Source: Streptosporangium sp. NBC_01755 (GTDB lineage: Bacteria; Actinomycetota; Actinomycetes; Streptosporangiales; Streptosporangiaceae). From it: a stretch of DNA of 64,000 nt. Under the pieces are notes generated by a model, which had not been told where the DNA came from, ran no database searches, and saw only the letters and a program-made list of their open reading frames with translations. The stretch lies in NCBI RefSeq assembly GCF_035917995.1, contig NZ_CP109131.1:5208001-5272000 (forward strand), in the 5' to 3' direction. The number at the start of each line of letters is the position of its first letter. Position 1 is the stretch's first letter. A program made the translations under genes and the position numbers. This document shows, piece after piece, positions 13,937 through 45,948 of this stretch.

Positions 13937-14012
13937 CCGTGGATGATCGCTTTTGTCGCCTTCGTAACAATCAAAGGTGATATGTCGGTTTTGTCGACTC
14001 TCTCACGTGACC

Positions 14013-14030
14013 TTGTGGTCTGATGTTGTC
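14013..14030 (+). promoter_or_regulatory. Possible conservon promoter element before cvnA1
   Basis: TTGTGGTCTGATGTTGTC, about 34 nt before the TTG start, partly matches the TGTGCTCnAAT word found before cvnA2, cvnA3 and cvnA4. This is the weakest of the four matches. Confidence 0.3.
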
Positions 14031-14063
14031 CACCTGTGTCGTGATTGAGGGGTAGCGAGAGCT

Positions 14064-17039
14064 TTGGCGACGGCGACATCCGAGAGCGGGGGTGCTTCGG
14101 CACCCGACCGTGGCAAGCGGCCTGCCGCCCGGTTCGGCCTGAGGAACTGGCGTGTCCGTTCGCGTCTGACGGCTCTGATCCTGGTGCCGACCACGGTGGG
14201 TGTCCTGCTTGCCGGTACGCGCGTGGTGGCCTCCGTCGACAGCGTCGCCGGATACCAGCGGACCGCCGCCGCGGCGGAGTACTCCGGCGGCCTCCGGGAT
14301 CTGGCCCAGGCGCTTGGATTGGAACGTGACCGAGGCGCCTGGGCGTCGTTCCAGCCCTCGAACAAGGGGTTGGAAGAGAGCGAGGAAGCCCAGCGGAAGG
14401 TGGTCGACGCGCTGGTCAAGAAGGTGCTGCTGGAGGTCCAGGCGATAGACGACTCCTACGGGTCCCGAACCGTCGAGGCGGCCAAGAGCGTCGCCTACCA
14501 GCTGGAGGGCATTTCCGAGCTGCGCCGCCTGCCGGGCACGACCCGTGTGGAACGTTACAGCCACATGATCGCCCCGCTGCTCAAGCTCCATGAGGAGCTC
14601 ACACTGGTCAGTGACGATTCGGAGATCATCGGCAACGCCCGCGCGCTGAGCGCCCTGGCGTACGCCAAGGAGGAGGTCTCCAGGCAGCGCGCCCGCCTGC
14701 TGGCCGGTTACTACGCGCCCTCGCTGATCAATCCGCAGGAGATCGAGAAGTTCATCGCCTCCCGTTCCCGCATGAACGAGTTCGAGGCGGACTTCAGCGT
14801 CGAGGCGAGCCCGGCCAACAGCTCGCTTCTCGTCACCTCCATGATCGACGAAAGGGTGCACCGGGCCGAGCTGACCAAGTCCAGGGCGATCGTGCTCGCC
14901 GGCGACCCCCGTTACACCGGGCGGCTGCTGCCGGGTTCCAACGAGGTCAAGCAGTGGTTCTCGGACAACACCGCGGTCCTCGACCTGATGCGGAAGGTCG
15001 AGACCAAGGTCGCCGGTGACGTGGTCGCCAGGGCACGGGCGCTGGAGGACACCGAGCAGCGCACCGCGATCATCACATCGGCTCTGATCCTGCTCCTGCT
15101 CCTGTTGGTGCTCGGCCTCACCGTCGTCATCGCCCGCTCGATGGTGACGCCGCTGCGCCGCCTGCGAGCCGAGGCGCTGGAGGTCGCGGGCTTCAGGCTT
15201 CCCGAGGTCGTGCAACGGCTGCGGGTCTCCGGCGACACCAGGACACCCGACATCGCCCCCATCTCGGTCGAGACCACCGACGAGATCGGCGAGGTGGCCA
15301 AGGCCTTCGACGAGGTCCACCGGCAGGCCGTGCGCCTGGCCGCCGAGGAGTCCGAGCTCCGTTCCAACATCAGCGCGATGTTCGTCAACCTGTCGCGTCG
15401 CACGCAGACCCTGGTCGAGCGGCAGATCTCGCTGATCGACGGCCTGGAGAAGGGGGAGGAGGACGGCGGCCGCCTGGCCGACCTGTTCAGGCTCGACCAC
15501 CTGGCCACCCGTATGCGGCGCAACTCCGAGAACCTCCTGGTCCTCGCCGGTCACGAGCCGCCCCGCAGGCGCAGCCGGCCCGCCAAACTCGTCGACGTCG
15601 TGCGCGCCTCCCTATCCGAGGTGGAGGACTACGAGCGGGTCCAGGTCAAGGTGCACCGTACGATCTCGGTCGCGGGCAGTGCCGCCAACGACATCGTGCA
15701 CCTGGTCGCGGAGCTGGTGGAGAACGCCGTCCAGTTCTCTCCCCGGGCCAGCCGGGTCGTGGTCTCCAGCAGCGCGATCGAGGGCGGTGGCGCGCTGCTC
15801 GCGGTCAGCGACCCGGGTATCGGCATGACCCACGAGGAACTGGTCGAGACGAACCGCAGGCTGGCGGATCCGCCCGTCGTCGACGTCTCGGTGTCGCGGC
15901 GCATGGGCCTGTTCGTGGTCGGCCGCCTGGCGCTGCGCCACGGCATCCGGGTGCAGTTGCGCCCGCAGGAGGGCGGTGGCCTCGTCGCCATGGTGCTGTT
16001 CCCGCCCGAGATCCTCGTGCAGGAGGTCCAGCCGGTGCAGACGCCCTCCTGGGGGACGGAGCAGGCGGTCTCGCGGGACTTCTCCGCCCAGGCGCCCACC
16101 GGCGGTCCGCCCGTCCAGCGGCCCTCGTACGGACAGGCCCAGCCCTCATTCGGGCAGTCCTCGTTCGGACAGGCCCAGCCCTCGTTCGAGCAGTCCTCGT
16201 TCGGACAGGGGCAGTCCTCGTTCGGGCAGAGCTCGTTCGGACAGGGTTCGTTCGGGCAGGCGTCCATCCCGGACGCACCCTCGTTCGGTTCGACCTCGCT
16301 GCCCGGTGACCATACCGCTCCGGGACGGCAGGACTCCGCCGGTCACATCGACTCGTCAGGTGCTCCGGCAGGTGGCGCGCCACTGCCCAAGCGCCAGGTC
16401 GGCGGGATGAAAGGCAACGGGGGTGTCTCCGCTCCCGGCTCCCCCTCCCGGGGAGAGTCCTCATACGAGCACGAGTACGAGTACGAGTACGAGTACGAGT
16501 ACGAGGGGCCGGCGGCTGGGACGATGCCCACGGTGGGCGTCTCCCCGCTCGAACCCGAGCAGGAGGAGTACCTGCCCATCTTCGCCTCGGTCGAGTCGGC
16601 CTGGTTCCGCCGCGCGGACGGGCCGGGTGAGCAGAAGGACGGGCCGGTGGAAGACAAGGTGCCCACGTCCTCCGCACCGGTGAGCAGGTCCGGAGAGCCG
16701 GAGGCGGCCTGGGCGGAGGAGTCCATGCCCCCGGCGGGCGCGGAGGCGGGCGACCCGGACGGCTGGGACACCCCCTCCGACGTCGGCTGGCAGGCCGCCC
16801 AGGCGGTGAGTGCCCCCACCCTCGGCGGGATCACCGCCGCGGGCCTGCCCAAGCGCATTCCAAGGGCGAATCTCGTACCGGGCACGGCCGCTCCCACGCC
16901 GTCCAGCCCGATGCCGTCGCCGTCCCCGGACAGGGTGCGCAACCGTCTGACGAGTTTTCAGCAGGGGGTGCGACGAGGTCGCGCCGAAGTGGCCGAAGCC
17001 ACTACCGGGAGCCTTATGGACAAGGAGGAGGGCTCGTGA
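14064..17039 (+). CDS. cvnA: Conservon 1 sensor histidine-kinase-like protein CvnA with low-complexity tail
   Basis: 991 residues. After a short Ser/Gly-rich start come TM1 (about 35-55), an extracytoplasmic helical NIT-type sensor region, TM2 (about 337-358), HAMP, a dimerisation helix with FRLDHLATRMRRNSENLLVL (His near 478) and a HATPase_c domain (N-box ELVENAVQF, G1 DPGIGM, G2 MGLFVVGRLAL). Residues 650-991 are a low-complexity cytoplasmic tail: SFGQ repeats, an EY repeat, then the shared motifs EEYLPIFASVESAWF, GLPKRIPRANLVPG and RNRLTSFQQGV. A TTG start at 14064 is used. It overlaps cvnB1 (GTGA). In S. coelicolor, conservon products form a membrane-associated GTPase complex. Confidence 0.92.
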   Translation: MATATSESGGASAPDRGKRPAARFGLRNWRVRSRLTALILVPTTVGVLLAGTRVVASVDSVAGYQRTAAAAEYSGGLRDLAQALGLERDRGAWASFQPSNKGLEESEEAQRKVVDALVKKVLLEVQAIDDSYGSRTVEAAKSVAYQLEGISELRRLPGTTRVERYSHMIAPLLKLHEELTLVSDDSEIIGNARALSALAYAKEEVSRQRARLLAGYYAPSLINPQEIEKFIASRSRMNEFEADFSVEASPANSSLLVTSMIDERVHRAELTKSRAIVLAGDPRYTGRLLPGSNEVKQWFSDNTAVLDLMRKVETKVAGDVVARARALEDTEQRTAIITSALILLLLLLVLGLTVVIARSMVTPLRRLRAEALEVAGFRLPEVVQRLRVSGDTRTPDIAPISVETTDEIGEVAKAFDEVHRQAVRLAAEESELRSNISAMFVNLSRRTQTLVERQISLIDGLEKGEEDGGRLADLFRLDHLATRMRRNSENLLVLAGHEPPRRRSRPAKLVDVVRASLSEVEDYERVQVKVHRTISVAGSAANDIVHLVAELVENAVQFSPRASRVVVSSSAIEGGGALLAVSDPGIGMTHEELVETNRRLADPPVVDVSVSRRMGLFVVGRLALRHGIRVQLRPQEGGGLVAMVLFPPEILVQEVQPVQTPSWGTEQAVSRDFSAQAPTGGPPVQRPSYGQAQPSFGQSSFGQAQPSFEQSSFGQGQSSFGQSSFGQGSFGQASIPDAPSFGSTSLPGDHTAPGRQDSAGHIDSSGAPAGGAPLPKRQVGGMKGNGGVSAPGSPSRGESSYEHEYEYEYEYEYEGPAAGTMPTVGVSPLEPEQEEYLPIFASVESAWFRRADGPGEQKDGPVEDKVPTSSAPVSRSGEPEAAWAEESMPPAGAEAGDPDGWDTPSDVGWQAAQAVSAPTLGGITAAGLPKRIPRANLVPGTAAPTPSSPMPSPSPDRVRNRLTSFQQGVRRGRAEVAEATTGSLMDKEEGS
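16141..16260 (+). repeat. SFGQ-coding repeat array in cvnA1
   Basis: In-frame degenerate repeats (TCGTTCGGACAG/TCGTTCGGGCAG type) encode six SFGQ units plus one SFEQ, separated by 0-4 residues; an SFGS follows just downstream. The product segment is rich in Phe, Gly, Gln and Ser. Confidence 0.85.
16466..16505 (+). repeat. Hexanucleotide TACGAG repeat in cvnA1
   Basis: TACGAG/CACGAG units in frame encode YEHEY followed by EY dipeptides, an acidic-aromatic run. It is a plausible slippage site; loss or gain of whole units would keep the frame. Confidence 0.85.
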
Positions 17040-17458
17040 CGACCCTGAGTCATGAGGCACGCAGGTTCGACTGGCTGATCACCGAGTTCGTCCGCGGCAC
17101 ACCCGGTGTCGCGCACGCGGTGTGCGTCTCCGCCGACGGGCTGAGGGTCGCCGGCTCGGAAGGGTTTCCGGCCGACAGGGCCGACCAGCTCGCCGCGGTC
17201 GCGGCGGGTCTCCTCAGCCTGACCGTGGGTGCCTCCCGCGTGTTCGACGGAGGTTCCGTCACCCAGACCGTGGTCGAGATGGAGCGCGGACTGTTGCTGG
17301 TCATGGCGATCAGCGACGGTTCCGCGCTCGCCGTGCTGGCCTCTCCCGACTGCGACATGGGTCTGGTGGCGTACCAGATGACCCTGCTCGTCGAGCGGGC
17401 CGGTCAGGTGCTCACCCCCGCGCTCCGTGCCGAGCTGCAGTCTTTCCGGGGCCGGTAG
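17036..17458 (+). CDS. cvnB: Conservon 1 roadblock/LC7-domain protein CvnB
   Basis: A 140-residue single roadblock/LC7 domain of the MglB-like group, starting with the conservon-typical FDWLITEFVRGTPGVAHAVCVSADGL and containing [14 protein letters not shown] and CDMGLVAYQMTLLVERAG. Roadblock proteins bind and regulate small Ras-like GTPases, here presumably CvnD1. The GTG at 17036 overlaps the cvnA1 stop and the 3' end overlaps the start of cvnC1 by one base, so expression is tightly coupled. Confidence 0.93.
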   Translation: MTTLSHEARRFDWLITEFVRGTPGVAHAVCVSADGLRVAGSEGFPADRADQLAAVAAGLLSLTVGASRVFDGGSVTQTVVEMERGLLLVMAISDGSALAVLASPDCDMGLVAYQMTLLVERAGQVLTPALRAELQSFRGR

Positions 17459-17859
17459 TGACCGGGTCCGTGTCGGGGTCGTCCGTGGGGAGGCCGGTGC
17501 GCGGGATTGACGGAACCGAGGACGACGAGCCCCTGTTCCGTCCGTACACCGTCACCGGTGGCAGGTCGGAGCCCCGTTTCCACCTGGCGATGGAGACGTT
17601 GGTCTCCTCTTCCTTCATCATGGAGGAGGACCTGGCTCTGCTCAGCCCCGAGCAGGATGCGATCATCAGGCTCTGTCGCTCGTATCGTTCCGTGGCTGAG
17701 ATCTCGGCTCTGCTGAGGGTCCCGCTCGGCGTGGCCCGCGTTCTGGTGGCGGATATGGTCGACGAGGGTTTCGTCCGCATCCACCAGCCACGTCTCAACG
17801 GGGGACAACCGGATCTCAACATGCTGGAAAGGGTGCTCAGTGGACTTCGCAGGCTCTAG
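17458..17859 (+). CDS. cvnC: Conservon 1 DUF742 protein CvnC
   Basis: 133 residues of the DUF742 family: an N-terminal FRPYTVTGGRSEPRF box, a helical middle, and a winged-helix-like part (YRSVAEISALLRVPLGVARVLVADMVDEGFVRIHQ) ending in LERVLSGLRRL. The GTG at 17458 shares its G with the cvnB1 stop; the longer upstream frame is cvnB1 read in another frame. The last 20 bases also encode the start of cvnD1. The role in the conservon complex is not established by sequence. Confidence 0.9.
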   Translation: MTGSVSGSSVGRPVRGIDGTEDDEPLFRPYTVTGGRSEPRFHLAMETLVSSSFIMEEDLALLSPEQDAIIRLCRSYRSVAEISALLRVPLGVARVLVADMVDEGFVRIHQPRLNGGQPDLNMLERVLSGLRRL

Positions 17860-18162
17860 CCGCGGCGGCGGCCTGACATCGACGAAAATCGTTGTCGCGG
17901 GGGGATTCGGTGTCGGTAAGACCACGTTCGTGGGGGCGGTGTCGGAGATCCTGCCGCTGACCACGGAGGCGGTGATGACCGACGCCAGCGCCGGGATCGA
18001 CGATCTCGACCTCACACCGAACAAGACCACCACCACGGTCGCGATGGACTTCGGCCGTCTCTCGCTGGACCGCGACCTGATCCTGTACCTGTTCGGCACG
18101 CCCGGCCAGCACCGGTTCTGGTTCATGTGGGACGACCTGGTCCGCGGCGCGATCGGCGCGGT
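17822..18162 (+). repeat. Long direct repeat copy 1 (cvnC/cvnD junction)
   Basis: 341 bp matching 45252-45592 at a constant offset of 27,430 with mismatches only at 18059 (C/G) and 18148 (C/T). Similarity continues beyond in patches, for example 18203-18240 with 45633-45670. Confidence 0.95.
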
Positions 18163-18430
18163 GGTCCTGATCGACACCCGGCGACTGGCCGAGGGCTTTC
18201 CCGCGATCGACTACTTCGAGGAGGCCAAGCTCCCCTTCGTGGTCGGTATCAACGGCTGGAACGGGGAGTTCCCGCACAACGAGGACGAGGTGCGGGAGGC
18301 TCTGACGCTGGCCCCGCACATTCCCGTCGTGCGGACCGACGCCCGCTCCCGCGACTCCGTCAAAGGCACGCTGATCACTCTGGTCGAGCATGTTCTGCGG
18401 GTCCGCGCGGCCTACGGCACGTCTGCGTAG
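17840..18430 (+). CDS. cvnD: Conservon 1 GTPase CvnD
   Basis: A 196-residue Ras-like GTPase of the bacterial MglA-related type. The P-loop is GGFGVGKTTF; the G3 region is FGTPGQHRFWFMWDDL; the usual G4 NKxD is replaced by NGWN; the C-terminus has TDARSRDSVKGTL. The GTG at 17840 lies within the end of cvnC1. Bases 17822-18162 are almost identical (two mismatches in 341) to cvnC4/cvnD4 at 45252-45592, evidence of recent gene conversion. It ends conservon 1. Confidence 0.93.
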   Translation: MDFAGSSRGGGLTSTKIVVAGGFGVGKTTFVGAVSEILPLTTEAVMTDASAGIDDLDLTPNKTTTTVAMDFGRLSLDRDLILYLFGTPGQHRFWFMWDDLVRGAIGAVVLIDTRRLAEGFPAIDYFEEAKLPFVVGINGWNGEFPHNEDEVREALTLAPHIPVVRTDARSRDSVKGTLITLVEHVLRVRAAYGTSA

Positions 18431-18584: not shown

Positions 18585-18600
18585 ATGTGCTCGAATTGCC
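18585..18600 (+). promoter_or_regulatory. Shared conservon promoter word before cvnA2
   Basis: ATGTGCTCGAATTGCC lies in an A+T-rich leader 67 nt before the GTG start. Near-identical ATGTGCTCAAATTGC is at 31429-31443 before cvnA3, and TGTGCTCCAATAACC at 41063-41077 before cvnA4. Confidence 0.5.
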
Positions 18601-18652
18601 GAGAACCGCAGGAAATTCGACCGGTGGTTCATCCACCGAGAGGCAGCGTTCG

Positions 18653-21394
18653 GTGAGCACACAGAGGATCCAAGCCGCGGGCAGCGGCCTACGCCCGCGG
18701 AACTGGCGGGTGAGGCGGCGCCTTGTCGCGCTCATCCTGGTGCCCACGATCGCCGCGGTGCTGCTCGGCGGGGTCCAGGTGCTCGCCTCGATGAGTGCCT
18801 CGAACGACTACCGGCGGATCAACGACCTGGCCCGGCTCTCCGGCCACGTCGGCGCGCTCACCCACGAACTGGCCAAGGAACGTGACCACACCGCCTGGTT
18901 CATCGCCCTCGGCCGCCCCGCGAGCGGGGTGAAGAACGTGCGGGCCCAGATGGACCTGGTCGACGGTGCCGTGACACGCGTTCGCGAGAGCGGTGCCCTG
19001 CTCGGCAGGGAGGTGAGCGGCCGTACCCGGGACGAGGTCGAGACCGCGATCACCCGCCTGGACGACCTCCCCCCGTTGCGTACCCAGGCCCTGGGGTCGA
19101 CGCTGCTACCCGACGCGGCCATCGCCGCCTACACCCCGGTCATCGCCGATCTGATCTCCCTCCACGACGAGCTCGGCAAGGGCACCGCCGACGACGTCCT
19201 GTTCGGCCAGGCCCTGACCCTGGACGCGCTCGCCCGCGCCAAGGAGGCGGTCTCGTTCCAGCGGGCGCTGCTGACCGTGGTGCTGGTGGCGGGGCGGTTC
19301 GAGCAGGAGCAGATGGAGCAGTTCCTCGGCGCGCTCTCCACGGAACGCAACGAGAGGAAGGCCTTCGCCGCCGAGGCCGGAAGCCGGGACCGCCGCCTCT
19401 TCGACGAGGCGGTCAACGGCCGTACCGCCGACCGCGCCGAGTTCCTCCGCGAGCTGGTCCTGCTCCGCGTGGCCTCCGGCGTCTCGCTGAAAGGGCTGGA
19501 CCCGGCGGAGAAGGACGACGCCGAGGAGTGGTTCGATGCGGCCACCGTCGTCGTCGACCAGATGCGCGGGGTCGAGGAACGGCACGCCCGGGACATCGTG
19601 GTACGCAGCCAGCAGCTCGGTGACGCCGAGCAGAGCCGCGCCCTGATGGTCGCCATGGCCGTCGTCACCCTGCTGGCGCTCGTGCTGGTGATCACCATCT
19701 GGGTGGCGCGCTCGCTGGTCAGCCCGCTACGGCGGCTGCGCGGGGAGGCGTTGGAGGTCGCCGGGGAGCGGCTGCCCGCGTACGTCCAGCGGGTCCGCGA
19801 GTCGCGCGAGGGGGAGGTCGTCGCGGACGTGCCGCCGATCGGGGTGCTGTCCCGAGACGAGATCGGCGAGGTCGCCAGGGCGTTCGACGAGGTACTCAGG
19901 GAGGCGGTGCGGCTGGCGGGCGACGAGGCCAAGTTGCGGAACACGGTGAACGCGATGTTCGTCAACCTCTCCCGGCGGAGCCAGAACCTGGTGGAACGCC
20001 AGCTCAGCCTGGTCGAGCGGCTGGAGCGCGGCGAGCGCGACGACCAGCGGCTGGCGGACCTGTTCAAGCTCGACCACCTCGCCACCCGCATGCGCCGCAA
20101 CAGCGAGAACCTGCTCGTCCTCGCCGGGCAGGAGGTGGCACGGCGCTGGAGGCAGCCTGTCGAGCTGATGGACGTGGTCAGGGCCGCGCTGTCGGAGGTG
20201 GAGAACTATGAGCGGGTGACGAACCGGGTCCAGTCGGAGGTCGCCGTCGAGGGTCCCGCGGTGAGCGACGTGGTCCACCTGCTGGCCGAGTTGGTGGAGA
20301 ACGCCGTCTCGTTCTCGCAGACGAACACCAGGGTCACGGTGTCCAGCAGCCGGATCGAGGGCGGCGGTGTGATGGTCTCGGTGACCGACCAGGGCATCGG
20401 TATGACGCCGGACGAGCTCTCCCAGGCCAACTGGCGGCTGGCCAACCCGCAGGCCGCCGACGCGTCGGTCGCCCGCCACATGGGTCTGTTCGTGGTCGGC
20501 CGCCTCGCGGTCAAGCACGACATCCGGGTCCGGCTCCGCCACCAGGAGTCCGGCCTGACCGCGATGATCCTCCTCCCGGAGACGCTCCTCGTCACGCCGC
20601 CCGACGCGCCCCAGCAGGTCGGCTACCCGCAACTCTCCGGCGCCCTCCCCGCGGGTGTCTCGCCCTTTACCGGCCCGTCGTTCCCCGCCGGTGCCGAGGG
20701 CCTGTCCCGGAGGGCCCCCGTGCTCGCGGCCCCCACCGCGCAGGTCCCCGCACAGGCATCCCCCGCACCCGGGTGGGACAGGCGGCCGGACGCGAACGCG
20801 CCGAGCGTGTGGAGCCCGCCCGTGGAGCGGTCCCGCTCGCGGGGGGAGTTCCCAGAGCCGGACTCCGGCCTCTTCGGCAGCCTTCCCGGCCCGCTCGACT
20901 CCTTTCCAGGTCAGGTTCCGGCGGACGGGACAGGGCCGCTGCCCAGGATGGGGGCCTCGCCGCCGGCACAGCGGGACGAGTTCCTGCCGATCTTCGCCTC
21001 GGTCGAGTCCGCCTGGTTCAGGATCGCCGCCTCCTCCGGAGAACCCGGCGCGGAGCCAGACGGTTCCGCTGCCGCGGCCCCTGGCGACCCCGTCCCGGGG
21101 AAACTCCGGGACGAGCCCGAAGCGTGGTCCTCGCCAGGTGACGGAGGCTGGCAGGCCGCCCAGGCGGCGAGCGCCCCCGCACACGGCGGTACGACCGCGG
21201 CCGGCCTGCCCAGGCGCACTCCCAAGGCCAACCTGGTGCCCGGCTCCGTGGCGCCGCTCGCGCGGGCACAGTCGCACCCGGAACCGGGCGCGGCCCCGGC
21301 CCCGGTCTCGGCCGAGCGGCTCCGCGACCGGATATCGAGCTTCCAGCAGGGCGTGCACAGGGCGCGCAACGAGCTCTCGAACGGGGATCGGTAG
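18653..21394 (+). CDS. cvnA: Second sensor histidine-kinase-like protein CvnA (reduced conservon)
   Basis: 913 residues with the CvnA plan: NWRVRRRL then TM1, NIT-type sensor region, TM2 (MVAMAVVTLLALVLVITIWV), HAMP, dimerisation helix FKLDHLATRMRRNSENLLVL, HATPase_c (ELVENAVSF, DQGIGM, MGLFVVGRLAV) and a Pro/Ala-rich tail carrying DEFLPIFASVESAWF, GLPRRTPKANLVPG and RDRISSFQQGV. The GTG at 18653 has GAGAGG nine bases upstream; the GTG at 18587 is less likely because it falls in the putative promoter word. It is followed by a cvnC gene only; no cvnB or cvnD is present. Confidence 0.9.
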   Translation: MSTQRIQAAGSGLRPRNWRVRRRLVALILVPTIAAVLLGGVQVLASMSASNDYRRINDLARLSGHVGALTHELAKERDHTAWFIALGRPASGVKNVRAQMDLVDGAVTRVRESGALLGREVSGRTRDEVETAITRLDDLPPLRTQALGSTLLPDAAIAAYTPVIADLISLHDELGKGTADDVLFGQALTLDALARAKEAVSFQRALLTVVLVAGRFEQEQMEQFLGALSTERNERKAFAAEAGSRDRRLFDEAVNGRTADRAEFLRELVLLRVASGVSLKGLDPAEKDDAEEWFDAATVVVDQMRGVEERHARDIVVRSQQLGDAEQSRALMVAMAVVTLLALVLVITIWVARSLVSPLRRLRGEALEVAGERLPAYVQRVRESREGEVVADVPPIGVLSRDEIGEVARAFDEVLREAVRLAGDEAKLRNTVNAMFVNLSRRSQNLVERQLSLVERLERGERDDQRLADLFKLDHLATRMRRNSENLLVLAGQEVARRWRQPVELMDVVRAALSEVENYERVTNRVQSEVAVEGPAVSDVVHLLAELVENAVSFSQTNTRVTVSSSRIEGGGVMVSVTDQGIGMTPDELSQANWRLANPQAADASVARHMGLFVVGRLAVKHDIRVRLRHQESGLTAMILLPETLLVTPPDAPQQVGYPQLSGALPAGVSPFTGPSFPAGAEGLSRRAPVLAAPTAQVPAQASPAPGWDRRPDANAPSVWSPPVERSRSRGEFPEPDSGLFGSLPGPLDSFPGQVPADGTGPLPRMGASPPAQRDEFLPIFASVESAWFRIAASSGEPGAEPDGSAAAAPGDPVPGKLRDEPEAWSSPGDGGWQAAQAASAPAHGGTTAAGLPRRTPKANLVPGSVAPLARAQSHPEPGAAPAPVSAERLRDRISSFQQGVHRARNELSNGDR

Positions 21395-21396
21395 CC

Positions 21397-21807
21397 GTGC
21401 GGGCCGACAACTCCGACGGTGGGCAGGACAGGCGCTTCGGGGACGAGCCGGAGTACGGCGAGCCGGTCGAGGAGGAGAGCTCGCTGGTCCGGATGTACGC
21501 CGTGACCGGAGGGCGGATCGTGCCGAGCGCCAAGCTCGCCATGGAGGCGATGGTCTCGACCTCGACCACGGCCCAGCTCGGCCTGTCCTACATCCGGGAG
21601 TATCGCCTCATCAGCGATCTGTGCCGCCGGGTCCGCTCGGTCGCGGAGATCTCCGCCCTCCTGGGCGTCCCCCTCGGTGTGACCCGTGTCCTGGTCTCCG
21701 ACATGGAGTCCGAGGGCCTGGTGCGGATCCACCACCCCAAGGTCGACGCGGCGGGCCCCGGTCCCGACATTCTCGAACGCGTCCTCAGCGGCCTCGACCA
21801 GATCTGA
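21397..21807 (+). CDS. cvnC: DUF742 protein CvnC of the reduced conservon
   Basis: 136 residues with the DUF742 core: VRMYAVTGGRIVPSAKL, RSVAEISALLGVPLGVTRVLVSDMESEGLVRIHH, and LERVLSGL at the end. It starts with GTG two bases after cvnA2. Its 3' end lacks the dual-coding overlap that begins cvnD in the three full conservons, and the next gene is convergent, so cvnD was lost or never present here. The product could serve a CvnD from another conservon. Confidence 0.88.
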   Translation: MRADNSDGGQDRRFGDEPEYGEPVEEESSLVRMYAVTGGRIVPSAKLAMEAMVSTSTTAQLGLSYIREYRLISDLCRRVRSVAEISALLGVPLGVTRVLVSDMESEGLVRIHHPKVDAAGPGPDILERVLSGLDQI

Positions 21808-21859
21808 GGCCGGTCGGGGCCGGTCGGGGCCGGTCGCGGGGCCCGCCGGGGACGGCGGG
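21808..21859. terminator. Convergent intergenic region with 10-bp repeats and a short hairpin
   Basis: GGCCGGTCGG-type units are repeated three times after cvnC2, followed by CCCGCC (21842-21847) facing GGCGGG (21854-21859). It lies between two convergent genes and may end transcription from both sides, though no T-run is seen. Confidence 0.4.
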
Positions 21860-22819: not shown

Positions 22820-22845
22820 GTGCTCTCCTTCATCGGTTCCAACGG

Positions 22846-34842: not shown

Positions 34843-34851
34843 GGGGGTGAT

Positions 34852-38090: not shown

Positions 38091-38099
38091 AGCAGGTCC

Positions 38100-38891: not shown

Positions 38892-39679
38892 CAGGCCACC
38901 TCCGTACGGGCGGTGTGCCAGCGGAAGACCCGCCGTTCCGCGAGCACGAACAGGCTGTTGGTGACCACGCCGATGATCCCGGTCCAGATGGCGGCGGCGA
39001 TGATGTACTCCACCGCGTCCACGCTGCCGCCGCTCTCCAGGACGTAACTGCCGATGCCCTGGGCGCCGCCGCCGAGCAGTTCCGCGCTGATCGCCACAAT
39101 GAGCGCGATCGCCGACGCCAGCCGGACGCCGGTGGCGATGAAGGGCGCCGTGCTCGGCAGGGAGACGCGCCACAGCACCGCGGACTTCCCGAACCCGAAG
39201 CTGCGGAGGGTCTCCTTGGCGAGCGGGTCGACGTCCTTGAGGCCGTACATCGTGTTGATCAGAACGGGCCAGGTCGCCGCGTAGACGATCAGGGTGACCT
39301 TCATGTCGAACCTGTCGGAGAACACGGCGAGCGCCAGCGGGATCAGCGCGATCGACGGGATCGGGCGCAGGAACTCAAGGATCGGCCGGAGCGCGCCCTC
39401 CACGCGGGGCAGGCTGCCGAGCAGGAACCCGGCTGGTACGGCGAGCGCGACCGTGATCAGTAATCCAAAGGCCCAGGCGCCGAGGGTCGAGGCGACGTCG
39501 GAGAGGAACTCCCCGTCCGTCACGAGCGTGGCTGCTCGACCGAGCACCGTGGAGGCCAGCGGGAACGAGAGCGAGCTGATCAGCCCGGCCCGGCCCGCGA
39601 CCTCCATGACGCAGAACAGCCCTGCGGTGCCGAGGGCGCCGCAGAGCAGCCTGCTGTCGAGCGGGTTACGCCGTGTCAC
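38891..39679 (-). CDS. ABC transporter permease (SsuC-like), first of two
   Basis: 262 residues, about six membrane helices, with loop KETLRSFGFGKSAVLWRVSLPSTAPFIATG. It starts at GTG 39679, overlapping the stop of the binding-protein gene (GTGA). It probably pairs with the next permease. Confidence 0.92.
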   Translation of the reverse strand: MTRRNPLDSRLLCGALGTAGLFCVMEVAGRAGLISSLSFPLASTVLGRAATLVTDGEFLSDVASTLGAWAFGLLITVALAVPAGFLLGSLPRVEGALRPILEFLRPIPSIALIPLALAVFSDRFDMKVTLIVYAATWPVLINTMYGLKDVDPLAKETLRSFGFGKSAVLWRVSLPSTAPFIATGVRLASAIALIVAISAELLGGGAQGIGSYVLESGGSVDAVEYIIAAAIWTGIIGVVTNSLFVLAERRVFRWHTARTEVA

Positions 39680-40659
39680 CCGAGGTTTCCAGGAAGGATG
39701 GTCTTGGCCTGGATCGGGCTCTTCAGGTAGCCCTGCTCGACCATCAGGTCGGCGACCCGCTGCAGGCGGGTCTCGTCAAGGCTGGTGGGGAAGGAGCCGA
39801 GGGTGATGACGGCGGCGGTCGCGGCGTCGATCTTGGTGTAGGTCGGCAGGATCTGCTCGACGGCCTTGCGGTCGGTGGCGGCGATCTGCTGGGCCTTGGC
39901 GATCGCACGCTGGAAGGCGGCGACGGTCTTGGGGTTCTCGGTGGCGAAGCTCTCCATCACGATCACGCCGGCGATGGGGAAGTCGGCGGTGGAGTCGACC
40001 ATCGTGTCGGCGAGCTTCTGGGCGCCGAGGTTCTTCTGCACCGCGGTCAGGGCCGGCTCCGTCATCCAGGCCGCGTCGACGACCTTGTTGGCCAGCTGGG
40101 CACCCATCTCGGGGAAGGGGAACTCCAGGAACTGCACGTCGTTCTCGGTGAGGCCGTGCGTCTTGAGCACCGTGGTCACCGCCAGGGTGCCGATGTTCTT
40201 GAGGCTGTTGACCGCGATCTTCTTGCCCTTGAGGTCGGCGGGCGTCTTGATCGATGAGTCCTTGGGAACCATGATGTTGAACGAGTTCGGGCTGGCCTGG
40301 TAGAGGTCTGAGATGATCTGCATCTTGTTGCCGGCCGCGACGGCCAGGAAGGCCGACACGTAGTTCGTCTGGGTGGCGTCCAGGGAGCCGCCGACGAGGG
40401 CCTGCTGGGCCTGAGCACCGCCGACCACCGGCTCGATGTTGACGGTGAGCCCCTCGGCCTTGAAGTAGCCCTTGTCCTTGGCGATGTAGAGCGCGGCCGA
40501 GTCGGGGATCGGCAGCGCGCCGATCTTGATCTGGGTCTTCTCCAGACCACCCGCGTTCGCGGCGGTGTCAGCGGGTTTGTCGGAACCTCCGCAGGCGCTC
40601 AGCACCAGGGCGGCGGCGACTCCTGCAATGACGGCCCGGCTCGCAAGTGTGAACCTCAT
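39676..40659 (-). CDS. NMT1/THI5-like ABC substrate-binding lipoprotein
   Basis: 327 residues. A lipoprotein signal (FTLASRAVIAGVAAALVLSAC) ends in an LSAC lipobox, then an NMT1/SsuA-type binding fold (IKIGALPIPDSAALYIAKDKGYF, VGGAQAQQALVGGSLDATQTNYVS). The ATG at 40659 follows AAAAGGAG; the ORF extends further upstream without support. Family ligands include sulfonates, taurine, nitrate and pyrimidine thiamine precursors; which applies is not clear. No riboswitch is evident in its leader. Confidence 0.92.
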   Translation of the reverse strand: MRFTLASRAVIAGVAAALVLSACGGSDKPADTAANAGGLEKTQIKIGALPIPDSAALYIAKDKGYFKAEGLTVNIEPVVGGAQAQQALVGGSLDATQTNYVSAFLAVAAGNKMQIISDLYQASPNSFNIMVPKDSSIKTPADLKGKKIAVNSLKNIGTLAVTTVLKTHGLTENDVQFLEFPFPEMGAQLANKVVDAAWMTEPALTAVQKNLGAQKLADTMVDSTADFPIAGVIVMESFATENPKTVAAFQRAIAKAQQIAATDRKAVEQILPTYTKIDAATAAVITLGSFPTSLDETRLQRVADLMVEQGYLKSPIQAKTILPGNLG

Positions 40660-40722
40660 GGGTCTCCTTTTAGCTGCATTAGCTGCATTTGACCGCCCCT
40701 GCCGGAGCTCGCGGTAACTCAT

Positions 40723-41169
40723 CGGGCGACATGGAGGTGGTCCCGGGAGGCATGTTGGTCAAGGGGGGTTTGCCGACCGCGGATCAGAGTAGCGGAGTAG
40801 ATCAGTCAAATTACAAGTACCACCCCTTTCGCCCCTTTCGCCCCTAAGCCACAAAGAAGTCACACGCCACCCAGTTGTCACACCCGTAACAATCAACAGA
40901 TAGATCCGCATAGCGGGCGTAGTCAAAGATGTCAATAAACCTGATCCGCAATTTTGTGGAAGTTTGTGGCTATGAGGCGGAGAGTCATCGCCCGGTTACG
41001 GATGCCATGTGCCCGTTCGGGCGGAAATGTGAGTTATGTGCTGTTGGCCGAACTCTTCCGGCTGTGCTCCAATAACCCCTACCCCATGGATGCGTCGGCG
41101 TCACCTGCACATCATTGCGTGACGCGATCCCCTCCAAGCAGACGATCCGAGGAGAGGCAGCGGAGGCCA
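40723..41169. other. Divergent intergenic region upstream of cvnA4
   Basis: Non-coding leader shared by the minus-strand ABC operon and conservon 4. It is relatively A+T-rich at 40790-40970, with several GTCACAC-type words (40860-40885). It holds the conservon promoter word TGTGCTCCAATAACC at 41063-41077. The cvnA4 frame is open back to 40954, but the extra sequence does not match other CvnA N-termini, so it is treated as leader. Confidence 0.5.
41063..41077 (+). promoter_or_regulatory. Shared conservon promoter word before cvnA4
   Basis: TGTGCTCCAATAACC, matching TGTGCTCnAAT before cvnA2 and cvnA3. A partial copy, TATGTGCT, lies at 41035-41042. Confidence 0.45.
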
Positions 41170-44100
41170 GTGAGGACAGCGTCAATCCCCAGCGAACGCG
41201 AATCCGGGCCGGCACCTGCCCGGGGATTCGACAACCAGGGGAGGCGGCCGCAGCGCGGCCCGAGCTCGGACCCGGACGGTCCTGACTCCGAAAGGTCCGC
41301 GAGGAACGGAGGCAAGCTCGCGCTCAAGAACTGGCGGGTGAGATCGCGACTGATCGCGCTCATCGTCATCCCCACGGCCGCCGCCATCGTGCTGGGCGGC
41401 CTGCGGGTCACCACCTCGATCAGCAGCGCCGCCGAGTACGAGCGCGTGCGCACCACCGCCGAACTCACCGCGGGCCTCAGCCACCTGGTCGACGAGCTAC
41501 AGGTCGAGCGGGACCTGTCGGGCCGGTACGTGGCACAGGGCAGACTGAGCACTGGCAAGTCGAACCTGCGCAAGCAGTACGAGAGCGTCGACGGTGTCGC
41601 CCGCGAGCTGCGCACCAGCATCGACGGCGTCATCAATGACAACGGCGTCGTGGAGACGTTCAGCACCCGGAGCAGGACCGAGCTCACGCAGATCCGCAGC
41701 CGCATCGACGAGCTCAAGAGCCTGCGTGACGCGGTGACGGCCACTCAGCTACCGGCCCAGCCCACGATCGCCGCGTACTCCCGTACCATCGCGGACCTGC
41801 TGGCCCTGCACGACGAGATCATTCAGGGCGGCGCGGACCAGGAGATCACCTCCAGCGCGGCCGCGTTCGCCGCGCTGGCCAGGGCCAAGGAACAGATGTC
41901 CAGGGAGCGGGCGAACCTCGCCGTCGCCCTCGCCGTCAGGGGGTTCAGCGCGGAAGGCCTCAACGCCATGCTGGCCGCCCGGGCGCAGCTCGACGGCGAG
42001 CTCGCGACCTTCCGCTCCGAGGCCTCGGTCGCCCAGCGCCAGCTCTACGACGACACGGTCAGCAGCCAGAAGAAGGACCGTGCGGCGGCACTGCGCGCCC
42101 GCGCCATCTTCCTGGCCCTCAACGGCCAGCCGCTGAGGAACGTCGACGTCTCCAGGACCGGACTCGGTGACCAGACGACCTGGTTCGACGCCTCCAGTGA
42201 CATCGTCGACCGCATGCGCACGGTGGAGAAGGGGGTCGCCGACACCCTCATCACGCAGAGCCGGGTCCTGCAGGAGTCCGAGCAGCGCGGAGCGCTGATC
42301 GCCGCCGGGCTGAGCGCGCTACTGCTCATCCTCGTCCTGGTCATCACCGCGATCATGGCGCGGTCGCTGGTCAGGCCGCTGCGCAGGCTCCGCACCGAGG
42401 CGCTTTCCATCGCCGGTCAGCGTCTGCCCGAGACCGTCCAGAGCATGCGCGAGAGCGGCGAGGTCTCGACCACCGACATCACCCCGATCGGTGTCGCCTC
42501 CGACGACGAGATCGGTGAGGTGGCCCGGGCCTTCGACGAGGTTCACCGCGAGGCCGTGCGACTGGCGGGCCAGGAGGCCACGCTGCGGAGCAACGTCAAC
42601 TCGATGTTCGTCAACCTCTCCCGGCGCAGCCAGACACTGGTGGAGCGCCAGCTCTCCCTCATCGAGAGCCTGGAGCAGGGCGAGCAGGACGAGGGCCGGC
42701 TCGGCAGCCTCTTCCGCCTCGATCACCTCGCCACCCGTATGCGCCGCAACTCGGAGAACCTCCTGGTCCTCGCCGGCCAGGAGCCCGCCCGCCGGTGGAG
42801 CCAGCCGGTCCCGCTCATCGACGTGGTCCGCGCCTCGCTGTCGGAGGTCGAGAACTACGAGCGGGTGGACCTGCAACTGTCCGCGGGCGTGGCCGTGGTC
42901 GGCACCTCCGTCAACGACATCGTCCACCTGATCGCGGAGCTCGTGGAGAACGCGATCTCCTTCTCCCCCCGGGAGACCAAGGTCATCGTCTCCAGCAACC
43001 GCATCGACGGTGGTGGCGTGATGGTCTCGGTGACCGACATCGGCATCGGCATGACCGCCGAGGAACTCGCCCAGGCCAACTGGCGACTGGCCAACCCGCC
43101 GGTGGTGGACGTATCGGTCTCCCGCCGGATGGGCCTGTTCGTGGTCGGCCGTCTTGCCCTGCGGCACGGCATCCGAGTCCAGCTCAGGCAGCAGGACAAC
43201 GGCGGCCTGACCGCCATGGTCCTGCTCCCGGAGAACCTGCTCGCCGTCACCGCCCGCCCGGGAGGCCCTCCCGGTGCCATGACGCAGAGCGGCGACTGGG
43301 CCAACTCCATGGTGTCCATGGACCGCCCGCCCGTGCTGGCAAGCCCCGACGCCCCCCCGATGCCGTCCTTCGCCTCGTTCGAGGCCGCTCACCAGAACTC
43401 GTTCTCCTCCTTCGACATGGGGCAGCAGTTCAACTCCTTCGAGGCCTCGCAGTTTCCCTTCGGAGGCGGCCAGTTCGGGCAGGCGCCCGTCGACACCCCG
43501 TGGCCGGGACAGCTTCCGCCGCCGGGCACCACTCCCGGTCACGGCTGGCCGGACGCCCCCCCGCCCGACCCCACCGCGTGGCGGCAAGGCCAGGGCAATT
43601 CGCCCCGCGGCGACGCGGGAATGTGGTCCGGGGCACCGAGCGCGCCCGCGCGCGGTGACGCCCCCGTCTGGCCCGGCGGGCAGAGCAGGGACGGCGGCCC
43701 CGACGCCTGGTCGGACTCCTCGCTCCGCGGCGGAGACTCCGGAGGATGGCCGTCCACCGGCGACTCCGGCCTGTTCGGGCGGCGTCCGTTCGACCCGGCG
43801 GACAACACCGGCCCGCTGCCGGTGATCCCCGACTCCTCGCCGATGGAAGAGGCGAAGGAGGAGTTTCTGCCGATCTTCGCGGCCGTCGAGTCCGACTGGT
43901 TCAAGAAGGTCGAGCCGGTCCCGGCCGTCGAGGAACGGGGCCAGGAGGTCGAACCGGTTCAGCCGGTCCAGGCCGTTCAGGAGACCGTCCAGCTCTCACA
44001 ACCGGTCGCCCCCGCGCAGGGGAACGGCTGGTCGTCGCCTGCCGATGTGGGCTGGCAGGCGGCCAAGGCCGCCAGTGAGCCCACACGTGGCGGGATCACC

Positions 44101-44349
44101 GGTTCCGGGCTGCCCAAGCGGGTGCCCAAGGCGAACCTGGTGCCCGGTACGGCCGCGCCCGACCTGAGCGCGGCTCCCCAAGCTCCCGTGCTCCGGCCGA
44201 CTGTCTCCCCGGAGGCGGTGCGCAACAGGTTGGCGAGCTTCCAGCAGGGAGTACGGCAGGGCCGCGCGGCAGCCAGGGGCGAAGCCGGAGACGGACGGCC
44301 GTATCCCGACTTCGGCCGGGACGTTGAAGGAAACAAGGAGGACCGGTGA
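41170..44349 (+). CDS. cvnA: Conservon 4 sensor histidine-kinase-like protein CvnA
   Basis: About 1059 residues from the GTG at 41170 (GGAGAGG and CGGAGG upstream); ATG 41086 is an alternative. A charged N-terminal extension leads to NWRVRSRLIALIVIPTAAAIVLGG (TM1), a NIT-type sensor region, TM2 (AALIAAGLSALLLILVLVI region), HAMP, FRLDHLATRMRRNSENLLVL and HATPase_c (ELVENAISF, DIGIGM, MGLFVVGRLAL). The long tail is rich in Phe, Ser, Pro, Gly and Trp and ends with EEFLPIFAAVESDWF, GLPKRVPKANLVPG and RNRLASFQQGV. cvnB4 starts 34 nt later, so unlike conservons 1 and 3 there is no stop/start overlap. Confidence 0.92.
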   Translation: MRTASIPSERESGPAPARGFDNQGRRPQRGPSSDPDGPDSERSARNGGKLALKNWRVRSRLIALIVIPTAAAIVLGGLRVTTSISSAAEYERVRTTAELTAGLSHLVDELQVERDLSGRYVAQGRLSTGKSNLRKQYESVDGVARELRTSIDGVINDNGVVETFSTRSRTELTQIRSRIDELKSLRDAVTATQLPAQPTIAAYSRTIADLLALHDEIIQGGADQEITSSAAAFAALARAKEQMSRERANLAVALAVRGFSAEGLNAMLAARAQLDGELATFRSEASVAQRQLYDDTVSSQKKDRAAALRARAIFLALNGQPLRNVDVSRTGLGDQTTWFDASSDIVDRMRTVEKGVADTLITQSRVLQESEQRGALIAAGLSALLLILVLVITAIMARSLVRPLRRLRTEALSIAGQRLPETVQSMRESGEVSTTDITPIGVASDDEIGEVARAFDEVHREAVRLAGQEATLRSNVNSMFVNLSRRSQTLVERQLSLIESLEQGEQDEGRLGSLFRLDHLATRMRRNSENLLVLAGQEPARRWSQPVPLIDVVRASLSEVENYERVDLQLSAGVAVVGTSVNDIVHLIAELVENAISFSPRETKVIVSSNRIDGGGVMVSVTDIGIGMTAEELAQANWRLANPPVVDVSVSRRMGLFVVGRLALRHGIRVQLRQQDNGGLTAMVLLPENLLAVTARPGGPPGAMTQSGDWANSMVSMDRPPVLASPDAPPMPSFASFEAAHQNSFSSFDMGQQFNSFEASQFPFGGGQFGQAPVDTPWPGQLPPPGTTPGHGWPDAPPPDPTAWRQGQGNSPRGDAGMWSGAPSAPARGDAPVWPGGQSRDGGPDAWSDSSLRGGDSGGWPSTGDSGLFGRRPFDPADNTGPLPVIPDSSPMEEAKEEFLPIFAAVESDWFKKVEPVPAVEERGQEVEPVQPVQAVQETVQLSQPVAPAQGNGWSSPADVGWQAAKAASEPTRGGITGSGLPKRVPKANLVPGTAAPDLSAAPQAPVLRPTVSPEAVRNRLASFQQGVRQGRAAARGEAGDGRPYPDFGRDVEGNKEDR

Positions 44350-44383
44350 GCGAGCTCATCATGGTCGCCAAGGAGGATGACAC

Positions 44384-44806
44384 GTGCGCGAAATGAGCCA
44401 GGCCGCCCGGGGGGTCAATTGGCTGATCACTGACTTTGTGAACAACGTCCCAGGTGTGGCGCACACGGTCGTCGTGTCGGCGGACGGTCTGCCGTTGGCG
44501 TATTCCGACGGATTTCCCAGGGACAGGGCGGACCAGCTGGCCGCGGTCGCGGCCGGCCTGATCAGCCTGACCCAGGGCGCCTCGCGGGTTTTCGAAGGCG
44601 GCGCGGTCACCCAGACCGTGGTGGAGATGCAACGAGGGCTGCTCCTCATCATGTCCATCAGTGACGGTTCCTGTCTGGCGGTGCTGGCCGCCGCCGACTG
44701 TGACATGGGACTGGTGGCCTACCAGATGACGATGCTCGTCGAGCGGGCAGGTCAGGTGCTGACCCCGGCCGTCCGTGCGGAACTGCAGTCTTCCCACTCA
44801 CGGTGA
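44384..44806 (+). CDS. cvnB: Conservon 4 roadblock/LC7-domain protein CvnB
   Basis: 140 residues: [45 protein letters not shown] and CDMGLVAYQMTMLVERAG. The GTG at 44384 has AAGGAGG seven bases upstream; the ATG at 44393 is inside. It has its own good ribosome site, so it does not depend on coupling to cvnA4. Confidence 0.93.
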   Translation: MREMSQAARGVNWLITDFVNNVPGVAHTVVVSADGLPLAYSDGFPRDRADQLAAVAAGLISLTQGASRVFEGGAVTQTVVEMQRGLLLIMSISDGSCLAVLAAADCDMGLVAYQMTMLVERAGQVLTPAVRAELQSSHSR

Positions 44807-44830
44807 CGGCGATGACGCTAGGAGGCTGCC

Positions 44831-45289
44831 GTGGCAGGCCGCGGCTGGACCGGTGAGGGTGACCCGCACGGCGGGTTTCCCTACCAATCGATGGACGACC
44901 CCCACCGGCAACAGGGTGGTCCTTCGCATCTCATGCAGCCGGCGCCGTCGGAGCAGAGCTCCCTCGTCCGCCCGTATGCAGTGACCGGGGGGCGTACCGC
45001 CCCTCGGATCCAACTCGCCCTGGAGGCTCTGGTCTCCTCGGCGACCTCTATACATCACGATTTATCCACCCGCACTCCGGAGTATCAGGCGATAAGTGCC
45101 CTGTGCCGGCAAGTGCGTTCGGTCGCTGAGATCTCCGCGATGCTCCGCATCCCGCTCGGCGTGACCCGGATCCTCGTCGCCGACATGGCCGCCGAGGGTC
45201 TGGTCCAGCTGCATCAGCCTCAGCTGGACGCGGGCAAGCCGGATCTCAACCTGCTGGAAAGGGTGCTCAGTGGACTTCGCAGGCTCTAG
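44831..45289 (+). CDS. cvnC: Conservon 4 DUF742 protein CvnC
   Basis: 152 residues, with an N-terminus about 20 residues longer than CvnC3 (Gly/Gln/His-rich), then VRPYAVTGGRTAPRIQLALEALVSS, RSVAEISAMLRIPLGVTRILVADMAAEGLVQLHQ and LLERVLSGLRRL. GTG 44831 follows TAGGAGG. Its 3' end lies in the conversion tract shared with conservon 1 and overlaps cvnD4 by 20 nt. Confidence 0.92.
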   Translation: MAGRGWTGEGDPHGGFPYQSMDDPHRQQGGPSHLMQPAPSEQSSLVRPYAVTGGRTAPRIQLALEALVSSATSIHHDLSTRTPEYQAISALCRQVRSVAEISAMLRIPLGVTRILVADMAAEGLVQLHQPQLDAGKPDLNLLERVLSGLRRL

Positions 45290-45592
45290 CCGCGGCGGCG
45301 GCCTGACATCGACGAAAATCGTTGTCGCGGGGGGATTCGGTGTCGGTAAGACCACGTTCGTGGGGGCGGTGTCGGAGATCCTGCCGCTGACCACGGAGGC
45401 GGTGATGACCGACGCCAGCGCCGGGATCGACGATCTCGACCTCACACCGAACAAGACCACCACCACGGTCGCGATGGACTTCGGCCGTGTCTCGCTGGAC
45501 CGCGACCTGATCCTGTACCTGTTCGGCACGCCCGGCCAGCACCGGTTCTGGTTCATGTGGGACGACCTGGTCCGCGGTGCGATCGGCGCGGT
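45252..45592 (+). repeat. Long direct repeat copy 2 (cvnC/cvnD junction)
   Basis: Matches 17822-18162 with two mismatches (45489, 45578). The two copies are direct and 27,430 bp apart, so recombination between them would remove everything from the end of cvnC1 to the end of cvnC4 and leave a single intact hybrid junction. Confidence 0.95.
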
Positions 45593-45863
45593 CGTGCTCG
45601 TCGACACCCGGAGGCTGGCCGACAGCTTCCCGGCGATCGACTACTTCGAGGAGGCCAAGCTCCCCTTCGTCGTCGCGGTCAACGGGTGGGACGGTAACTA
45701 CCTGCACGGTGAGGAGGAGGTACGCGAGGCGCTGACGCTGGCGCCGCACATCCCCATCTCCAGGACCGACGCCCGCTCGCGCGACGCGGTGAAGACCACG
45801 CTCATCACGCTCGTGGAGCACGCGCTCACCGTGCGGATGGCCCTTCCCGGCTGGGGCCGCTGA
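45270..45863 (+). CDS. cvnD: Conservon 4 GTPase CvnD (mosaic gene)
   Basis: 197 residues. P-loop GGFGVGKTTF, G3 FGTPGQHRFWFMWDDL, NGWD at the G4 position, TDARSRDAVKTTL near the end. The first half is nearly identical in DNA to cvnD1; bases 45576-45635 are identical to cvnD3; 45633-45670 again match cvnD1; the remainder is unique. GTG 45270 lies within the end of cvnC4. Confidence 0.93.
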   Translation: MDFAGSSRGGGLTSTKIVVAGGFGVGKTTFVGAVSEILPLTTEAVMTDASAGIDDLDLTPNKTTTTVAMDFGRVSLDRDLILYLFGTPGQHRFWFMWDDLVRGAIGAVVLVDTRRLADSFPAIDYFEEAKLPFVVAVNGWDGNYLHGEEEVREALTLAPHIPISRTDARSRDAVKTTLITLVEHALTVRMALPGWGR

Positions 45864-45884
45864 CCGCGGGAGGGCGTCAGTCGC

Positions 45885-45910
45885 ACCTCCCAGCGGATAG
45901 GCTGGGAGGT
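45885..45910 (+). terminator. Hairpin between conservon 4 and ffh
   Basis: ACCTCCCAGC (45885-45894) pairs with GCTGGGAGGT (45901-45910) around GGATAG. There is no T-run. TAGGCT at 45898-45903 could instead be a -10 box for ffh, so the role is uncertain. Confidence 0.4.
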
Positions 45911-45948
45911 CGAGTCGCAGACCTGTAGCGCAGAGGCTGGCCAATCAC

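Follow-up and report, generated by a model that had tools for sequence, protein, structure and literature searches.

A probably ancient, importer-linked conservon array between glnD and ffh in Streptosporangium and its relatives

Why are the housekeeping genes glnD and ffh held apart in Streptosporangium sp. NBC_01755 by a long block of conservons, the membrane GTPase signalling units of actinomycetes? We addressed this question in a stretch of 64,000 nucleotides (hereafter the window; positions 5208001-5272000 of the single-contig, 8.15 Mb genome, with coordinates below counted from its first base), in which glnD ends at 13936, ffh starts at 45949 and four conservon loci, cvn-1 to cvn-4, lie between them. 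Our analysis points, with a probability of roughly 0.6, to an old and vertically inherited conservon array whose nutrient-coupled sensors would feed similar, perhaps shared, G-proteins.

Domains were assigned by Pfam scans, which confirmed the identities of amtB (10008-11321), glnK (11318-11656) and glnD (11660-13936) at the left border and of ffh (45949-47508; SRP54/SRP_SPB) at the right, all on the plus strand; the GlnD of the window shares 98% identity with its counterpart in Streptosporangium amethystogenes. Between these borders, which agree exactly with the block limits given in the preliminary description of this DNA, we found three cvnABCD operons and a single cvnA-cvnC pair, every one of them on the plus strand. 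The domain order A-B-C-D is NIT, HAMP and HATPase_c (CvnA), Roadblock/LC7 (CvnB), DUF742 (CvnC) and ATP_bind_1 (CvnD). The first locus, cvn-1 (14064-18430), consists of cvnA (start nearer 14184), cvnB (17036-17458), cvnC (17458-17859) and cvnD (17840-18430); cvn-3 (31484-35800) of cvnA, cvnB (34420-34842), cvnC (34852-35253) and cvnD (35192-35800); and cvn-4 (40954-45863) of cvnA (start nearer 41338, end 44349), cvnB (44384-44806), cvnC (44831-45289) and cvnD (45270-45863). The remaining locus, cvn-2 (18587-21807), has only cvnA (start nearer 18710, end 21394) and cvnC (21397-21807). CvnA and CvnC are thus present at 4/4 loci and CvnB and CvnD at cvn-1, -3 and -4, and cvn-2, which fails the complete order, is a reduced relative rather than a complete conservon. 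Genome-wide there are 11 DUF742 (cvnC) genes, 4 of them in this block.

Did the block arise in this genome? A scan with GlnD found 529 relatives, of which we took the best 80, all of which carry Streptosporangiaceae genus names, so that the set is biased to near relatives; in 80/80 of these loci a cvnA match starts 128-291 bp past glnD. When ffh was sought in 50 of the 80 genomes, 43 gave an interval and 7 none, and one interval was dropped (Sphaerisporangium rufum, G033; its 3.6 kb conflict with locus L053, whose conservon genes fill those bases). All 42 complete intervals that remained, 9,849-72,344 bp long, contain two to five cvnA (two in 4, three in 18, four in 16 and five in 4). We call such a conservon-bearing interval an island. 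An order-wide sample of 150 genomes yielded a GlnD match in 87 and none at the cut-off in 63, and glnD and ffh lie on one contig and strand in 62 of the 87, after leaving out 24 genomes with the two genes on separate contigs and one interval crossing a record end. Long intervals of 9.5-79 kb were found in 42/62 (overlapping with the named set and including the window), and a short spacing of 76-2287 bp in 20/62, all of the latter in four Actinomadura-type genera (g12, g18, g28 and g37; "Actinomadura-type", "Nocardiopsis-type" and "Streptomyces-like" are inferred group labels). One long interval outside the family (G051) has no conservon. A genome of 4.19 Mb (G111, L192) yields nothing for GlnD at the cut-off but still has two conservons directly before ffh.

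The preliminary description had stated that amtB-glnK-glnD is directly followed by ffh in Streptomyces coelicolor, and this order was borne out in 6/6 Streptomyces-like genomes read. Because these genomes, too, have amtB-glnK-glnD next to ffh, the adjacency is probably the older state. The block can accordingly be regarded, as had been proposed, as an inserted or expanded segment that separates two housekeeping units, which the spacing of 76-2287 bp in 20/20 measured Actinomadura-type genomes supports. It did not arise in this genome, given the cvnA after glnD in all 80 loci and the two to five cvnA in all 42 intervals: that related genera share the block counts against a local event and leaves an ancient one standing.

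Several observations touch the same interval elsewhere. All six Streptomyces-like genomes read (L221-L226) carry a tandem pair of island-type conservons at a distance of 44-56 kb from ffh, so that a loose neighbourhood of ffh and an island-type conservon may predate the island. A small Nocardiopsis-type genome (G058, L253) has amtB before ffh and no glnK or glnD match. In the island of Planotetraspora A-T 1434 (L135), one cvnA is inverted, and about 1 kb has recently been duplicated in tandem, the copies being 95.5% identical and separated by 4.8 kb.

How, then, did the four conservons come about? We built a CvnA tree (165 sequences) and concatenated A-B-C-D trees with IQ-TREE (64 and 60 systems) and FastTree (144 systems); the FastTree set used 36 of 47 island intervals, the 64-system tree is a subset of those, and the 60-system tree combines eight of the 36 with more distant conservons, six of 20 wider loci being omitted. 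The island conservons form a single clade (ultrafast bootstrap, UFBoot, 100 with 64 systems and 93 with 60; FastTree support 0.98). Sister to this clade is the one related conservon that Actinomadura-type genomes carry; a Nocardiopsis-type conservon joins that sister group in the 60-system tree with a support of only 65. Within the island clade, each window locus groups with its positional counterparts of other genera in the CvnA tree. Paralogues within the window are 46-52% (CvnA), 75-79% (CvnB), 50-73% (CvnC) and 80-87% (CvnD) identical, and their identity to the other conservons of the genome is 27-32%, 34-44%, 26-40% and 49-57%, respectively. From the clade, the orthogroups and these identities we conclude that the copies come from amplification in place that predates the split of the genera; as judged from the trees, the four loci are one clade of four old orthogroups. 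The duplication in place that had been suspected at first thus stood as to its mode (UFBoot 100/93) and fell as to its timing, since the loci group with orthologues across genera. A recent local duplication in this genome is ruled out by the same grouping of every locus with its positional orthologues.

Do the copies also share their control? By k-mer counts over upstream regions we found an element with the core TGTGnTCSAAT. In the window, on the plus strand, it lies at 14014-14024 for cvn-1 (degenerate, 2 mismatches), 18586-18596 for cvn-2 (TGTGCTCGAAT), 31430-31440 for cvn-3 (1 mismatch) and 41063-41073 for cvn-4 (TGTGCTCCAAT, with TTGG upstream). With at most one mismatch it precedes 128/159 island cvnA (first 23/47, middle 61/65, last 44/47), 5/5 outgroup cvnA, 6/25 wider cvnA, 0/19 control conservons and 5/805 other genes, and shuffled island upstream regions contain it in 4/159. 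The exact core occurs 76 times upstream of cvnA and 0 times elsewhere in the scanned stretches; with one mismatch the figures are 61 versus 27. As the element was defined on the same data, the contrast with controls and outgroup outweighs the raw count.

The element is a plausible candidate site of the regulator BldC. The 22-base BldC site of whiI, given in an excerpt of PMC5859096, fits the core with one mismatch, a fit reached by 87/200000 random window 22-mers and 120/200000 shuffles of the site, and the published BldC protomer consensus AATTXXXX(C) is contained in the core. In Streptomyces venezuelae, cvn1 and cvn4 are reported to be direct targets of BldC, and expression of all seven conservons is lowered when bldC is mutated (PMC6428758, excerpt). 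It is the whiI fit, the consensus and these S. venezuelae data together that make a BldC site plausible; the likeness to that regulon lies in the BldC dependence of conservons there and a similar site sequence here, and the difference in that the element marks most copies of an array. That it is instead an ordinary promoter or the site of another regulator is a real possibility, to which we give somewhat less than even chances. TTGG stands 19 nucleotides ahead of the core in 64 sites and could be a promoter hexamer, and just one BldC half-site is clearly conserved: the window half-sites read AATT in cvn-2 and cvn-3, TATT in cvn-4 and CATC in cvn-1, and the units of a second half-site (direct repeat at 9 bp) are weak. 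The whiI fit, rare among random and shuffled sequences, and the position of the protomer consensus within the core speak against this alternative. A sigma-70 promoter scan at cvn-4 found nothing. Two other candidates were rejected. GlnR as common control of the block was set aside for the lack of GlnR-box enrichment in the window (28 matches to the consensus versus a shuffle mean of 31.7), with two one-mismatch matches to that consensus ahead of amtB, at 9822 and 9853. A conserved leader peptide at the element, whose cvn-4 copy lies inside the cvnA open frame, fails because the frame varies and stops interrupt it elsewhere.

What might the sensors respond to? The preliminary description had noted two ATP-binding cassette (ABC) importers interleaved with the conservons, and both are real. 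A PotABCD-like importer (binding protein, two permeases and ATPase; 23816-27918, plus strand) precedes cvn-3, followed by a TetR-type regulator (27912-28607, minus), a GT1-type glycosyltransferase (28643-29917, plus) and an aminobutyraldehyde dehydrogenase subfamily protein (29952-31358, plus; PRK13473, 626.2 bits, cut-off 615), which is below the stricter equivalog TIGR03374 (513.6 of 909.3). An NMT1/SsuA-type importer (ATPase, two permeases and binding protein; 37308-40722, minus) is divergent from cvn-4. The first conservon, cvn-1, adjoins amtB-glnK-glnD, and cvn-2 has in relatives a divergent betaine/choline-type importer (OpuAC binding protein and fused permease, by Pfam), which a GMC oxidoreductase frequently accompanies. 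The window no longer has this importer, and S. amethystogenes retains a single gene of it. We surveyed the islands by gene calls and clustering over the intervals, with an upstream walk limited to eight genes. Leaving aside the first cvnA of each interval, an importer gene is the immediate upstream neighbour of 64 of the 115 others and lies elsewhere in the same gap for 39; 8/115 directly follow another conservon (window cvn-2 included) and 4/115 have other neighbours, two of these (G019 and G111) being really the first of their interval. As controls we used 19 other conservons, 6 from this genome and 13 from Actinomadura-type genomes; three directly follow a conservon and were left unscanned, and among the 16 scanned an importer is the nearest upstream gene in 0/16. 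Only 4/189 control genes resemble island importers, none of them upstream of cvnA.

The control conservons have a different recurring partner set. Several have a terpene-cyclase-type or CbiX-type gene as their nearest upstream gene; a terpene-cyclase-like gene precedes five of them (L009, L212, L214, weakly, L216 and L218), and at L009 a terpene synthase and a P450 lie further upstream.

The pairing with the NMT1/SsuA-type importer extends beyond the island. One island-type CvnB each occurs in 19/20 Actinomadura-type genomes, and in 17/19 of these a cvn-4-type importer ATPase (69-74% identical) lies 4.1-11.1 kb from it, on the opposite strand and on the cvnA side; of the two exceptions, G145 shows none and G153 the binding protein only. 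Ten further genomes in the same search have the pairing in one (G130) and lack it in nine, and in the six genomes read of seven Streptomyces-like ones, no island-importer-like gene stands beside the two tandem conservons in the stretch read. The pairing is present in Actinomadura-type genomes at another chromosomal place and thus predates the island, into which, on the simplest view, it was brought. In a genome of another family of the class (G206, L239), an island-type conservon has a divergent NMT1-type binding-protein-like gene (37% identical to the island family) on a short contig.

The main rival to nutrient-specific sensors is that all four detect one small anion, nitrate, nitrite or similar, with the copies differing in expression or output and the importers being regulated targets. 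Profile comparison relates the NIT domains to NasR (E 6.3e-17), and the predicted NIT fold (mean pLDDT 90.1) resembles that of 4akk (Foldseek E 1e-7; TM-score 0.70 on the query, with a root-mean-square deviation of 10.5 over the whole alignment). Neither R58 nor R191 varies among 33 sensor sequences, all four paralogues included, and R191 aligns with an E-R pair of NasR that we take to be E175-R176. For E175-R176 of NasR, nitrate binding has been proposed (PMC7496416, excerpt). Invariant arginines are more easily reconciled with one small anion as shared ligand than with four different substrates; as they favour an anion common to all copies, the importers would be targets and not inputs. That amtB-glnK-glnD adjoins the array fits this reading as well. 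It is opposed by the divergence of the NIT domains, which are 27-36% identical between window paralogues versus 55-79% between orthologues in three relatives, suggesting divided specificities; the DHp-like region and the ATPase domain of the same paralogues are 69-85% and 56-67% identical. An excerpt of PMC13343842 also questions whether nitrate is what every NIT domain senses, and describes the signal path of conservons as little understood. On balance we consider a single anion unlikely, though a serious contender.

The other rival, that conservons and importers are merely neighbours in an insertion-tolerant place where importers are frequent, so that their linkage has no functional meaning, strikes us as quite unlikely: the spread of interval lengths (9.8-72 kb in named relatives and up to 79 kb in the order-wide sample), the unrelated genes in some islands and the Planotetraspora islands with conservons and without importers speak for it, and against it stand the same importer head-to-head with the related conservon in quite another part of the chromosome in 17/19 Actinomadura-type genomes and the 0/16 importers among the nearest upstream genes of control conservons.

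We nevertheless found several points that weigh against an array of nutrient-coupled sensors. Neither importer reaches any substrate-model cut-off: the NMT1/SsuA-type importer scores 139.4 bits with TIGR01728 (cut-off 163.5), its ATPase at best 230.6 with ntrCD (cut-off 291.8), and the PotABCD-like importer 116.5 of 582 with PotD and 348.4 of 355.6 with the potA subfamily. The importer associations amount to about three independent events inherited repeatedly, not 103. In the window, cvn-2 is without its betaine-type importer and directly behind another conservon, cvn-1 is tied to amtB merely by its position after glnD, and across the islands 4/115 non-first cvnA have other neighbours. Related conservons of Streptomyces-like and most Nocardiopsis-type genomes have no adjoining island-type importer, and at one control locus (L220) an NMT1-like importer adjoins the cvnD end and makes up three of the four importer-like control genes. 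The arginines aligned with the proposed nitrate site of NasR are invariant in all four sensors. The upstream element, finally, was counted in the very sequences that defined it, is kept by first-position cvnA in just 23/47, and its three matches in the window alone are no more than chance.

Are the switches as divided as the sensors? CvnD of cvn-1, -3 and -4 has the P-loop GGFGVGKT together with Pfam ATP_bind_1, and a simple NKxD/TKxD pattern search in the window CvnD gave no match. The 5' parts of cvnD-1 (17840-18162) and cvnD-4 (45270-45592), both on the plus strand and 27 kb apart, differ over their first 323 nucleotides by two mismatches, and the rest is 73% identical. Across the islands, tracts of at least 150 nucleotides with at most two mismatches were found in 17/171 cvnD pairs, 6/163 cvnB pairs and 1/179 cvnC pairs, as counted by an ungapped scan with wide offsets; a Megablast self-comparison misses the cvnD-1/cvnD-4 tract. 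One genome (G021) gives one tract of each kind, which looks like recent duplication rather than conversion. Taken with the diverged sensors, the tract pattern suggests that gene conversion keeps the switches alike as the sensors drift apart. The longest tract seen joins the cvnD of the second and third conservons of Rhizohabitans (L190; 541 nucleotides at 99.8% identity).

The A-C pair bears on the same question. No cvnB or cvnD remnant better than E 0.27 was found beside it within 20991-24200 of the window. The cvn-2 orthogroup is a full A-B-C-D system in Sinosporangium and Nonomuraea, and A-C pairs are kept at the cvn-2 position in Planobispora and Planomonospora besides Streptosporangium; since the orthogroup is full in the former two genera, it was the Streptosporangium-Planobispora-Planomonospora line that lost cvnB and cvnD. 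In three comparisons, dN/dS is 0.44-0.45 for cvn-2 cvnA (other CvnA 0.31-0.55) and 0.34-0.45 for its cvnC, a weaker constraint than in CvnC of full systems (0.06-0.17); by these ratios, the pair is still under purifying selection. Elsewhere in this genome, a second A-C arrangement in which B and D were not found lies near 4094-4096 kb (L011), with a group II intron reverse transcriptase two genes upstream and a CvnA match that crosses 5 in-frame TGA codons, and near 6469037 (L014) a cvnC (DUF742) has no detected cvnA, B or D beside it.

We propose that the array split the glnD-ffh junction in the ancestor of the Streptosporangiaceae in the strict sense. A founder conservon, probably already head-to-head with an NMT1/SsuA-type ABC importer, would have settled in the junction and duplicated in place into cvn-1 to cvn-4 before the genera split, with later lineages losing or adding copies. 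Each CvnA may sense the supply of one nutrient, via its NIT-type extracellular domain or via the neighbouring importer, and these nutrients would be mostly nitrogen-containing (ammonium side, betaine/choline type, polyamine type and NMT1/SsuA type). The signal would pass from CvnA to CvnB and CvnC and on to the CvnD GTPase, the CvnB/CvnD pool would be similar enough for partial sharing, and the whole set might be expressed together under a BldC-like regulator. If the pool can be shared, the A-C pair could therefore work with the B and D of its neighbours. The cross-talk with uptake genes that had been suggested for this block finds only indirect support, in the conserved importer linkage and the very similar CvnB and CvnD. 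A fully modular nutrient-sensing array, with one importer per CvnA, BldC co-expression, a pool of gene-converted CvnB and CvnD on which the signals converge and an A-C pair that acts as a branch with a sensor only and a borrowed GTPase, seems to us rather unlikely.

How does the array compare with known systems? It shares the CvnA-B-C-D order and domains with cvn1-cvn13 of Streptomyces coelicolor, conservons being also known as actinobacterial G protein systems (AGPS), as well as the NIT sensors, which an excerpt of PMC8510531 reports for conservons 1-6 of that species. The LPxR motif reported for the CvnA C-terminus (PMC4316618, excerpt) is present in all four window loci. It differs in that four old paralogues, most of them importer-linked in the family, make up an array between glnD and ffh, and in having one pair without CvnB and CvnD; a P450 or GAF gene of the CvnE/CvnF type was not found among the genes called in the glnD-ffh interval. 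The closest solved relative of CvnB is Rv3364c (9hef, E 9.8e-41), which we take to be MfpD of the mycobacterial mfp conservon. Mycobacteria differ in having a single AGPS, mostly the Mfp system, and no array, as far as the excerpt of PMC13343842 goes. The adjacent duplicated conservons in the excerpt of PMC4316618, one of them without its mglA/cvnD, resemble the array in their adjacency and missing GTPase gene, whereas here B and D were lost together. The helical nitrate-sensing fold of the NasR NIT domain (4akk) recurs here in a membrane kinase-like protein, NasR itself being an RNA-binding antiterminator. Other genes of the block encode a SIS-domain protein (21860-22819), a glucosamine-kinase-like protein (22846-23805; 273.7 bits, cut-off 550) and an O-methyltransferase-type protein (36178-37182), all on the minus strand.

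Conservons themselves are already known, and what is new is the ancestral importer-linked array with its reduced A-C branch; among open-licence PMC papers we found none that describes the island or its importer linkage. A family-wide array with nameable importers beside many conservons offers concrete candidate ligands for conservon inputs, and it can be seen as a natural experiment in the specificity of sensors and switches. The A-C pair poses directly the question of whether CvnB and CvnD are shared between systems. For the soil relatives of Streptosporangium, importer-linked G-protein sensors thus make it possible to test what these sensors take as input.

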